The translations under genes were made by a program, and so were the position numbers. Below are positions 30,911-39,222 of a stretch of DNA of 64,000 bases, piece by piece (positions within the stretch are counted from its first letter, which is position 1; each line of letters starts with the position of its first letter). The DNA is from Isoetes taiwanensis (taxonomy: Eukaryota > Streptophyta > Lycopodiopsida > Isoetales > Isoetaceae): positions 18,708,386 through 18,772,385 of the forward strand of contig JAJEKV010000003.1 of NCBI GenBank assembly GCA_021234155.1, read 5' to 3'. The notes under the pieces are model-generated. The model ran no database searches, was not told the DNA's origin, and saw nothing but the letters and a program-made list of their open reading frames with translations.

Positions 30911-31086
30911 TTAATGATCGAGATTCTCGCTTTAATGCTCGCGATGTTTGAAAAAACGTCAAAAAGATTAGTTGAGCTATAAATGGTTCTTGGTAATATC
31001 TAGGACTCTATTAATAGACTTGAGAGCTCCATAACGGTATCTCGTAATTTTCTTTGATCGGGATTTTTTGTGTTGTAATTGTTTCA
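30911..31086 (+). repeat. 5' LTR of copia copy 2 (unit B)
   Basis: Matches the 3' LTR from TAATGATCGAGATTCT to TTGTAATTGTTTCA with roughly 85% identity by eye. It lacks the first few LTR bases at its left edge. Confidence 0.85.
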
Positions 31087-31385: not shown

Positions 31386-31561
31386 ATGGGGAAGGGCAAA
31401 TGGGACTTGATTCCGGTTTTGTTTTAGGTGGGGTAGGGGGAACCGGGCGGTAGCCGGAGCGGTCACCTAGAAACCGGAATCAAGGACCATTTAATTCGGG
31501 TATAGATTTCATTGTGGACCCCACCTAGAAACCGGAATCAAGTCCCATTTGCCCTTCCCCA
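31386..31561. repeat. 176-bp inverted-repeat element with ~45-bp arms
   Basis: Left arm 31387-31434 (GGGGAAGGGCAAATGGGACT, then GATTCCGGTTT and AGGTGGGGT) is an inverted copy of 31518-31561. A third, diverged copy (GGGGAAGAGGCAATTGGGAC) lies at 34515-34548 near the end of the recombinase gene. No target duplication is visible, so it is unclear whether this is a separate MITE or part of the larger insertion. Confidence 0.7.
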
Positions 31562-31588
31562 CAATATAGAAATAGGGGAGATTTTTTT

Positions 31589-32452
31589 CTCCCTTTTCTT
31601 CTTCGTGATTTTTTCGGATCTCTCTGAGGCCATGGATTCTTCGAGGCCGTGGTTATTTCCTCCAGCGAGATCCGGCCGAGTAAAGCGGCCAGGATGAAGG
31701 GCTTTGCTCGCAAGAAGCGTTTTGAAGGCATTTTGGCTTTTTTTCGAATTTCATGAAGATTTTTGTAGCAGTTCGAATTTTTGTTGCTGATTCTTGTTGC
31801 TTAGTTGTATCGGACGTTAGTGTTGCATCGGACTTGGGTAAAACACAAATGTTCAAGTTTTTGTGAAACTTTCATGTATTCTTATTGTTTTTGCAATCTT
31901 TAATTGCTTTTTGTTTGATGTGTTTACCAAGAGGAAAGGAAATAGGGTCGATTCCGTCGAGTTTTGTTTTTGGGAACAAGCTCCAAAGTTAGTTCAGAGT
32001 TAATTTTGTATAGATTTAATTGTGTTTTGTTTGTAGATTTTTCTTTATTTTTAGGCATGCAAGGTTTTTTCTTGATTATATGCTCTTCTTTTGTCAGATT
32101 CTCCTAAAAGATGCATTCGAGGCTTGTTGAGAAGTTGGTTATACTTTTGAGCATTCGGTTTTGGAGGTAAATTTTCATGGATGCAGGTATAAGTTAGTTG
32201 TGGGATCTAATTTTTTGAATGTTGTTGCGAGATAGTTGTGGAGTTGTAAATCTTGGTTATAACTAGAAGGTTAGTGGGTCACATGTGTGTTAGGTGAGTA
32301 TGCATGTGTAGTAGGGTAGTCCAAATGTGTTTATTTAGTGCAAAAAATAATCTTGGAGTATATTCTTTGTTAAAAAATATGTTTAATTTTTGCGTGATGC
32401 ATTTAACCAAAGGGGAGATGTTATACCAAGAAATATAGTTTTACCATTTTTG
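31589..32452 (+). other. 5' region of the recombinase element
   Basis: T-rich, with a short frame MDSSRPWLFPPARSGR from 31632. No domain recognised; likely leader, promoter or upstream intron. Confidence 0.4.
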
Positions 32453-32519
32453 ATGGGAGATGTTATACACGCAATGTTGAATGTGTCTTCGGAGGAGCAT
32501 TTGAATGGATCTGAGTCAG

Positions 32520-32580
32520 GTAATTTTCTTATCTATTGTTTACCTTTTGATAGTTTTTAATTATTATTCTTTATATGTAG
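32520..32580 (+). other. Recombinase gene intron, 61 bp
   Basis: GTAATT...ATGTAG; splicing joins GSES to GVGCPSFSLG in frame. Confidence 0.6.
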
Positions 32581-33087
32581 GTGTTGGTTGTCCATCATTT
32601 AGTCTTGGTAGTCCTTTTGAGACTACTCCTAAAGATGGCATTGTAGGCATCAACTTGTGAGGCGGCCTTTTGATGGTAGTTTTGATCCCATTTAATGTAA
32701 TTACAATTTGAGTTTGATTGCGCACAAAACCAAAGATGATAATAGAGGAGGGTGGTTCAAGTTTAAGTACCGGATGAAATAATGCACGATGGCGATGAAT
32801 ATGATGATTTAGTGGGTGATCGGGCGCCGTGGAAAGAAGCCATTGAAGCTTGGTGGTTTTGTTGAGCTGAATCCAGAGCTTGTTACTAGGGTGACTAATG
32901 CCTTTGCAAGTCCTTTGGAAACAAAGGACGAATGGGTCAGGGGCAGGTTTGATGCATGGCGGATGCATCTTGGGAAACCAGTTGATCTTAAAATTGAAGA
33001 CATGGAATTGGACATTCTTGCTGAGTATTTGGAAGAGTTCATGCCTTGTGTGCGTCGAATCGATGGGAAGCCATATCCACTAGACAC

Positions 33088-33159
33088 GTAAGCTGTTTAT
33101 TATTGCTTTATTATTGTTTATTATTAGTTTATTATTCTGACATGTTTTCTGCTGTGCAG
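33088..33159 (+). other. Recombinase gene intron, 72 bp
   Basis: GTAAGC...GTGCAG, rich in TTATT. Splicing restores PLDTLQNLF across the exon join, matching the family pattern. Confidence 0.85.
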
Positions 33160-34386
33160 GTTGCAGAATCTGTTCCGTGGTTTCAATAGAATTTTACGTC
33201 GGGCACAGGATGCTAGGATCATGAATACTCGACAGGAAGAGAAAGTAATTGACATCTATAAGGATGTCAAGTTCATGAAAGCTCGTAAAGCTTTGGAGGT
33301 TGCGATGGAGGAATCTGTTGCTGCCGGGTTTACTCCGAAGAGGAAGAAATCAGATATATTGAGCCGGGAAGACCAATCCAAAATTCTGCAACATCCAGCA
33401 CATCAAGTGAGCAATAATTTGGGACTGCGGAAGAGGTTTGCTTTCTATTGTATGTCACGTTTTTTAATTCGTGGGGGCGAGGAATTATGTAAGATCAGAG
33501 ATTTTCAGTTTTATATTGGAAAAGACTTTGTGAATCAGTATCTAGAATTCTGTGAGACGACCAGTAAGAACTGGCGTGGCGGGATTAAGAAGTGCAAGCC
33601 TGAAGATTTCAGGGAGCCCGTCAGATGCTACGAAGCTGATGTCATAGAGTGCTGGAGACATTTAGAGTACCGTTTACCAAAGTATGAGGTGAAGGATAAG
33701 TATGGTGGCAGGTTCGTCTTCTTGCAGGCTATTAATCGTCCCTGAAAAGATATATGGTATAATACGAATCATGTTTCATCGAAAACCATGTCAACTTGGC
33801 TGAAAGACATGGTTGAGGTGTGTGGGATAGATGGAAATTTTACTAACAAAAGCTGCAGGAGTACTGCAATTACGCAGATGTCAGTGTCAGGTGTGCCTAT
33901 TGAAGTTGGCATGAAGATTACGAGTCACAAGAATGCTGAATTATATCAGTGTTATGATCAGAGTGGGGTTGTCGCACGAGCATCTGCTATGGATGTTCTG
34001 AATTCTGGTAAGACATATGTAGAGTCTTTTCAGAATAATGTCAAAAACTTGAATGCTGGATTGTGTGGGAATCCGGAGAAGGCGGCTAGTTTATGTTCGT
34101 CATTTGGAAATCTTTTGTGTGATATCACGAACAGCAAGAGTGCTTCAAGTTCTATGCAGGCTGTTACTCCAGGTTCTAGTCGTCAAGTGCCGGTTGAAAT
34201 AGATGATTCATACATGAATGACTTGGATCTGGTGCTAAAACAGAAGCCTGATTTGAAGAAATATTTCTCTGACCCTGTAGAGAATGCTGCTGGATCTGGA
34301 AGCGTGAGTATTTCAGGTAATAAAATTGAGAATATTGTGATTCATGTGGGAAGTTTAACTAAAGCTGGATCTCTTATAAAATCTCT

Positions 34387-34455
34387 GTAAGTATTTTCTT
34401 TATAATTTTCTTGGTTTCTTTATAATCTTTGGTTTTAATTGTTTATGCTTTGCAG
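34387..34455 (+). other. Recombinase gene last intron, 69 bp
   Basis: GTAAGT...TTTGCAG. After splicing the frame reads Ser-Leu-Lys and stops at TGA 34460-34462. Confidence 0.7.
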
Positions 34456-34462
34456 GAAATGA

Positions 34463-34972
34463 GGGTGCAGCTGCAATGTGGATAGTGGAGTGTCTGGAAT
34501 TTGCAGTACGGGGAAGAGGCAATTGGGACTTGATTCTGGTTTGAACTGCGCTAATGAGATGTGATAACTTTCAGTGTTGTAAATCTGCAACTTTTGATGT
34601 TTAGTGTCTTAAGTTTGAGTACTTTGAGTACTCTGTTGGGATAACTTTCACTGTTGCTGATCTGCTACTTTTGATAACTTTGATAATCCAAGTTTGTACT
34701 GAAATCTAACTTTGATGATCTAAGTTTTGTACTGAAATCTAAGTTTGATAATTTGAGATTTGTAACTTTGATGTTTGTAACTTTGATGTGAACTTTGATG
34801 TGTAACTTTGATGTGAACTTTGATGTTTACAACTTAAAACTGCTTGAAAAAAATTTAGAAGTGAAAAAACAGGCAATGACCGGTTCAACCTGTCACGCGG
34901 AATTAGGGCACCCAACTGCCATTCCGGGATATTGGCTGTGACACGTGTCAAGCCAGAAATGCACCAACAATA
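34463..34972 (+). other. 3' region of the recombinase element
   Basis: Contains the diverged third copy of the 176-bp-element arm (34515-34548) and a run of short repeats based on AACTTTGATG / GTAACTTTGATGTG (about 34565-34830). No ORF of note. Confidence 0.6.
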
Positions 34973-34996
34973 AAAAAAATCGACCCTATTTCTATA

Positions 34997-35779
34997 TTGT
35001 TTGGGCTCAAGGATGGGCAGATTCCATTAGTGAGATTGAAGAACACTGCAAAGGAAGGATGGGAGTGCTTGAAGAAAACATTCAAGGCTCATAACACGTC
35101 ACAGAAATGGTTTTTGTGGCAAAAATTTTTTAGTGCTAAAATGAAGGAAGAGGATGATCCCACTGATCATATTAGCACTATGGAAAGCCTAGCAGATCAG
35201 CTTGCAGCACTAACTGACTCTATTAGTGATGAGGATTTGGCTATGGCAATATTGGCAAGCCTTCCAGGATCCTATGACTCGATCAAACAGGCCATGGGAT
35301 GTAAAGATGGAAAAATGAAGAGTGAGGCAGTGATTGGTGCTGTGCTTCAAGCATCTCATCTCCTCAAGAAAGAGGAGAAAGAATCAGCCTATGTGGCCAA
35401 AGTCAAGGCTTCAAGAAACGATTTTGAATGCTGGTCTTGTGGCAAGAAAGGCCATATTGCAAGGAATTGCAGACACTCCAAGAAAGTTGGGGACAAAAAG
35501 GCTGACAAAGAGAGAGTTGATAGCAAAAAATACAGGAAGGCCAGATCCGGTGAAAGAAGATGGAATAATGCCCGCTCTGGTGGCTCGGGGGCAAGCGTGA
35601 CAGAAGATACCTCTGCTAAATCTTCAGAAGAAGAAGAAGATAGTGAAATTGAAGAGAATGTAGCTGTCCTAGTTGACCAAGAATCTGAAAGTGACTGGGA
35701 GAACGATGCATCCTTGGAATTGTACAAGAGCTTTCTCAATTCTCGGTGGAACTCCAGCAACTCCAGCATGCATGTTTGA
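34997..35779 (+). pseudogene. copia-2 gag, C-terminal part after the insertion
   Basis: Long open stretch with the UBN2-type core (FGLKDGQIPLVRLKNTAKEG, LADQLAALTDSISDEDLAMA, ILASLPGSYDSIKQAM) and an intact CCHC knuckle CWSCGKKGHIARNC (about 35430-35471). The usual first ~100 residues lie on the other side of the recombinase insertion. An acidic tail follows. The ATG at 34997 is formed by the insertion edge and is not the natural start. Confidence 0.88.
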
Positions 35780-39039: not shown

Positions 39040-39222
39040 TGTTGAGATAATGATCGAGATTCTGCTTTAATGCTCTGCATGCTGTTAAAAACAGAAAAAG
39101 ATCAGTTGAGCTATAAATGGTTCTTGGTGTAAATATCTAGGATTCTATTAATAGACGTGAGAGCTCCATAACACGTATCTCAGAATTTTCTTTGATCTGC
39201 GCCTTGTGTTGTAATTGTTTCA
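39040..39222 (+). repeat. 3' LTR of copia copy 2
   Basis: TGTTGAGATAATGATCGAG to TTGTAATTGTTTCA, 183 bp, followed by the GCATT target duplication. Confidence 0.9.

Follow-up and report, generated by a model that had tools for sequence, protein, structure and literature searches.

Two kinds of mobile element with a tyrosine recombinase (YR), Cryptons and DIRS retrotransposons, are the described systems closest to the locus analysed here. For DIRS elements, it has been proposed that a single strand folds so that its ends abut on an internal complementary region. According to the available text of Kojima and Jurka (2011; PMC3212892), Cryptons lack terminal inverted repeats (TIRs) and carry terminal direct repeats of 4-6 bp. 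The accessible part of a 2024 paper states that Cryptons were not yet identified in plants, and a 2015 table, in the portion available, has Crypton entered for all groups. In a 64,000-nucleotide stretch of the Isoetes taiwanensis genome (contig JAJEKV010000003.1, positions 18,708,386 to 18,772,385; “the window”), we found an element that is likely one copy, now damaged, from a land-plant family of DNA transposons that comprises several lineages and is mobilised by a Crypton-like tyrosine recombinase.

A preliminary description of the window had placed an intron-bearing tyrosine recombinase at 32453-34462, and the coding stretch, the catalytic motifs and three GT-AG introns are indeed present. 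This span leaves much of the 3,614-bp element at 31386-34999 outside, and the description gave neither the element ends nor the internal inverted junction nor the empty site, all of which were found here. The gene is made up as follows:

32453-34462, plus strand: tyrosine recombinase (YR) gene, damaged copy (PF00589 E 1.8e-4, below the cut-off; own-genome matches)
32520-32580, plus strand: intron 1, GT-AG (sequence and reading frames)
33088-33159, plus strand: intron 2, GT-AG (reading frames)
34387-34455, plus strand: intron 3, GT-AG (reading frames)
33743-33745, plus strand: in-frame TGA (a position open in several related copies)

Splicing at the three junctions preserves the YR frame, and 34462 is the last base of the stop codon. 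The earlier claim that three short introns keep the frame stands at the splice junctions but not for the window copy itself, which is broken by a frame break between ~32660 and 32813 and by the TGA. A copy 98% identical to the window (L033) is open across both damaged places; its first exon is apparently frame-shifted. The window carries the catalytic motifs Arg (LIRGG), Lys (TSKN), Lys-x-x-Arg (KSCR), His (SHK) and Tyr. The catalytic Arg, Arg, His and Tyr named earlier are present, but with Lys-x-x-Arg instead of HxxR, the Lys of KSCR lying where many family members carry His. Lys as the equivalent of His in a catalytic Lys-x-x-Arg is known from topoisomerase IB. In all eight aligned relatives Arg, Lys and Lys-x-x-Arg are invariant, and the second His is kept in nine of 13 frames, with Gln instead in four frames of a second clade. 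In this second clade (L049-L052), which has Gln at the expected second His, an apparent intron lies directly before the catalytic Tyr.

Profile searches point to the same superfamily. PF00589 scored above its curated cut-off of 27.1 bits in two of four intact relatives (33.1 bits, E 6e-8, in L033; 31.5 bits, E 1.8e-7); the third reached 22.7 bits, below the cut-off, and the second-clade one gave no match. The window piece scored 21.7 bits, also under the cut-off, and five of eight trimmed relatives matched at E<=1. The profile of DUF3504 (PF12012), the family label first given to this gene, matched none of three window pieces and none of the four relatives at E<=1, and two of the eight trimmed relatives weakly (best E 0.0016); the label is replaced here by PF00589, which fits better. 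From its profile matches and catalytic residues, the predicted gene product belongs to the tyrosine recombinase superfamily. Among NCBIfam models, archaeal XerA is weakly resembled by three of the eight relatives (best E 0.0013). Two other loci in the genome, L001 (G000:C31) and L002 (G000:C606), represent a second lineage of DUF3504-type recombinases, whose genes apparently contain several introns, and both score above the PF12012 cut-off. No confirmed relative was found among viral and prokaryote genome contigs (68 and 95 pattern matches). Solved structures gave a single chance-level match and none on a second search, and single-sequence structure prediction was uninformative (pLDDT 37).

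A search of the own genome with the window YR, in which 134 of 1983 candidates were scored, gave at least 146 matches at 35-98% identity in addition to the match of the window to itself (100%). Several matches may come from a single copy, and the family is possibly larger than 146 suggests. The best E (1.4e-200) is the window itself, and the matches are spread over many contigs. Because 146 own-genome matches fall at 35-98% identity, the likeness is not due to chance. Many of them are stop-free, and in several copies the main recombinase exon is uninterrupted by stops, so that the same-genome search for intact homologues proposed in the preliminary description did yield open relatives.

An origin by contamination from an alga, a fungus or an oomycete has in its favour that the available text of PMC3212892 describes Cryptons from fungi, oomycetes and a diatom. 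Against it stand the spread of at least 146 YR matches over many contigs, the nesting of the element in a copia element whose empty copies sit on other contigs, and the presence of ALOG genes in the same assembly (seven matches, two of them strong). As of 2012, ALOG genes in green plants were recorded from land plants and Spirogyra only, according to the part of PMC3537659 available. Contamination was rejected on the copia nesting, the many-contig spread and the ALOG genes; the nesting in copia alone refutes it in practice, and we give it next to no credence. An intron-bearing YR element in a land-plant nuclear genome, as first claimed, is upheld, the contig itself being 34.7 Mb long.

The element that surrounds the gene consists, in order, of a left arm a, a GC-rich loop, an arm a', a segment r', the YR gene and a right end r:

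31386-34999, plus strand: whole element, 3,614 bp, inside a copia element (right breakpoints, copy comparison, empty copia sites)
31386-31419, plus strand: left arm a, with left end ATGGGG (inverted repeat; other copies' left ends)
31420-31528, plus strand: loop containing a 41-nt GC-rich segment in degenerate form (81% over 43 positions)
31529-31561, plus strand: arm a', inverse complement of a (inverted repeat, copy comparison)
31562-31588, plus strand: r', inverse complement of right end r (inverted repeat and co-variation)
34871-34960, plus strand: subterminal dyads ACCGGTTCAACCTGT and TGACACGTGTCA (read by eye; similar in other right ends compared)
34973-34999, plus strand: right end r, ending ...CCCTATTTCTATATTG (inverted repeat and other copies' right ends)

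When 20 fetched copies were compared with the window by Blast, the right breakpoint fell at 34998-35002 in five of them; left ends were located through copy-to-copy comparison. Left ends mostly start TATGG or TATA; most other copies of the window's group have TATGG, and the window has ATGGGG. TG precedes the left end in 20 of 22 copies (exceptions L006 and L029), a count for which the left boundary was placed directly after TG, by analogy, in the window, L028 and L049-L052; for L028, L051 and L052 it differs from the one used in the own- versus cross-pair comparison below. On the other side, T follows the right end in 24 of 29 copies, and right ends terminate in TTG except in L013 (TTT) and L066 (GTG). 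These flanks show that NTG|T sites are preferred as targets.

The empty site ATG|TTTGGG is present in nine of ten fetched copia copies (40 scored matches), and the window reads ATG-element-TTTGGG; the tenth copy (L058) has unrelated sequence on the left side. At the window insertion, the one insertion tested, there is no target duplication longer than TG, and the direct repeat shared reliably is TG only (2 bp). The shared TG with no duplication beyond it fits exchange of a circle by the YR. Three points count here against a Crypton-like family: the TG repeat is shorter than the 4-6 bp of Cryptons, PF12012 support is weak, and the empty site comes from one insertion. The copia host retains probable LTR pieces at ~30912-31086 and 39048-39222; with 84% identity across 179 aligned positions, they mark it as an old element.

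Long inverted repeats are absent from the outermost ends, while r has an internal inverse copy, r'. Arms a and a' form a 33-nt, 100% inverted repeat (31387-31419 with 31529-31561), and r and r' a 28-nt, 93% inverted repeat. The segment a'-r' is thus the inverse complement of the joined ends r|a, and the junction between the joined ends reads CAA/TTG. The same layout, in different letters, recurs in the distant copies L051 and L052 (~35% protein identity), and L049 and L050 have the left hairpin (their right ends are unlocated). A third, direct copy of the left arm (84%) lies just 3' of the YR gene in the window copy, at 34511-34542.

Terminal and internal segments change together. The r variants CTATTTCTATATTG, CTATTTCAATATTG, CTGTTTCCATATTG, CCCTTTCCATGTTG and CAACTTCCATTTTG each occur with the corresponding r', with mismatches in L021 and L029. 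Across r/r', 98.4% of cells are paired and changes on both sides occur in five of 16 pairs (eight distinct rows); the covariation score was reached by 0 of 500 shuffles, a count that is no probability, as the rows are related. In 11 copies, own pairs exceeded cross pairs for r/r' (0.90 vs 0.58) and for a/a' (51.5 vs 20.3), with a permutation p of 1e-5, copies with an end missing or beyond the fetched stretch being excluded (among them L008, L011, L024-L027 and L032). With the two distant copies removed, the nine main-group copies gave 0.89 vs 0.77 (p 1.5e-4) for r/r' and 53.8 vs 24.2 (p 2e-5) for a/a'. The own partner is strictly best in three of these nine for r/r' (eight counting ties) and in eight of nine for a/a'. 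Individual copies deviate: the r of L029 pairs better with the r' of other copies (0.89) than with the r' of L029 itself (0.83), and the arm a of L012 scores 67 with the a' of L029 and 52 with its own.

This anatomy could also be read as an ordinary TIR transposon, r'...r, with a captured recombinase gene and a fold-back MITE adjoining it, given that r' and r are TIR-like in length and identity and that the left part, with its perfect arms, is MITE-like. The hairpin, however, lies 5' of r' in every copy with a left end found, at unrelated sites (one comparison searched the 5' part only); the single empty site shows no duplication beyond TG; no DDE transposase family was matched in the scanned frames; and both a/a' and r/r' co-vary. 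A MITE next door, at 31387-31561, was rejected as other copies' left ends also have such a hairpin. Being common to the insertions, the hairpin, together with the empty site, largely refutes this reading, which we consider highly improbable.

The 41-nt GC-rich loop is 93-100% identical in L006, L008, L012, L025, L027 and L063, though their arms differ by subfamily, and 81-85% identical in the window, L024, L028 and L032; in other copies it is missing or strongly shortened. The forward loop pattern has six exact matches in the genome. We scored 21 loops for orientation, counting as orientable those with a clear score difference between orientations (14 of 21): 13 are forward, one (L029) is inverted and seven show no clear difference. 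The inverted loop of L029 hints at recombination between two inverted sites. Against this, palindromic arms and ordinary recombination could also invert that loop. L029 further speaks against the preferred reading in that its left end has no TG, as do the several copies that have no loop. The Lys in place of His in HxxR, and the Gln at the expected His in the four second-clade copies read, also count against it.

Copies without a nearby YR gene were sought through the right end, for which 40 matches were scored among 201 candidates. By hand count, 26 of the 40 lie >5 kb from any listed YR match, a list that is incomplete, so that YR pieces may be present in some of the 26. Among eight that were fetched, L066, L069 and L070 (986, 1,088 and 1,105 bp) contain all four segments a, a', r' and r. 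In L063-L065 r' is present and the left end is cut off; in L067 and L068 r' was not found within the 1.2 kb fetched, which counts against the preferred reading. A ~500-bp non-autonomous element of the same kind lies beside a full copy in L040 (~1412-1914). Two identical left-end matches occur <10 kb apart on one contig (G000:C985:16487948 and 16497611).

Under a classical Crypton model, only a double-stranded circle would form, and the internal inverted site would play no part in transposition, being either a relic or a regulatory binding site. In the available text of PMC3212892, a circle model is proposed for Cryptons and TATGG termini are reported for the majority of CryptonS, both of which suit this model. 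The internal and terminal copies nevertheless change in concert, and the three 1-kb copies retain the layout; each argues for a role in cis, and we regard the model as unlikely, if less so than the other alternatives. Folded as single-stranded DNA, L066 (986 nt) gave an 18-bp a/a' hairpin adjoining a closing r'/r helix (z -2.63; none of 20 shuffles was equally stable). On the basis of this folding, movement may include a single-strand step.

There remains the possibility that the element is a non-autonomous DIRS relative that inherited its internal complementary region and whose RNA is copied by an RT encoded elsewhere. Its a'-r' has the same topology as the internal complementary regions of DIRS elements, for which the available text of PMC3266345 describes an overlap on a 3-bp circular junction (here CAA/TTG). 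The YR gene, however, retains its introns, whereas passage through RNA would tend to remove them, and the eleven measured elements are 3.0-3.6 kb long. Pfam searches covered longer frames, namely six further open ones in the window element and eight in six copies (L006, L010, L028, L021, L051 and L052). They matched no RT or DDE family, and RNase H and methylase were likewise unmatched in these frames; the YR is the sole recognised enzyme in the frames scanned. In addition, the accessible text of PMC3266345 listed green plants in 2011 as devoid of DIRS1-like elements. We therefore judge a DIRS relative decidedly improbable. Retention of introns by the YR gene instead suggests movement at the DNA level.

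For the Crypton-like family that we favour, the following mechanism can be proposed. The recombinase would join r to a to form a circle, whose r|a site would then recombine with an NTG|T target. The internal a'-r' would serve as a second, inverted recombinase site, and a single strand may fold so that both ends abut on a'-r' as a double-stranded site. It is possible, though we advance it only tentatively and hold it somewhat less probable than not, that these elements constitute an undescribed order of DNA transposons, characterised by introns, a YR, the lack of an RT and an internal complementary junction of DIRS type through which a single-stranded or circular form is closed. If true, this order would connect Cryptons structurally with DIRS retrotransposons and would be a diversified lineage resident in land plants.

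Our literature search on plant Cryptons and on hairpin or complementary termini returned no title or abstract start describing such plant elements; an earlier description is possible in subscription papers or Repbase reports, which lay outside its scope. The words “hairpin” and “palindrom” are absent from the available text of PMC3212892. The elements resemble CryptonS in that the YR is the sole enzyme recognised, the left terminus is TATGG (as in most CryptonS) and, at the one site tested here, the target is not duplicated beyond a short shared repeat. They differ from Cryptons in the internal inverted copy of the joined ends, the long left hairpin, the introns, Lys-x-x-Arg and the TG-only junction. 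The genes KIAA1958 and QRICH1 (DUF3504, PF12012) bear a distant profile resemblance to two of eight relatives; Tyr and the second Arg are lost there, according to the available text of PMC3212892, whereas the catalytic residues are largely kept here.

With DIRS1-like elements, as portrayed in the accessible text of PMC3266345, they share a YR and an internal segment complementary to both ends that overlaps on a 3-bp circular junction. Unlike those elements, they have introns, no RT, RNase H or methylase match in the scanned frames, no DIRS-type inverted terminal repeats that we could see, and the internal copy near the 5' end rather than, as the same text has it for DIRS, the 3' end. What is new here is the anatomy: a plant YR element that contains its joined ends a second time, internally and inverted. 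For a diversified plant YR transposon family, the ends, the preferred target and one empty site are now described, and since the main exon is free of stops in several copies, a plant site-specific recombinase may be obtainable. The internal inverted junction links DNA-only YR elements to DIRS retroelements, and how the ends of either are closed becomes testable.
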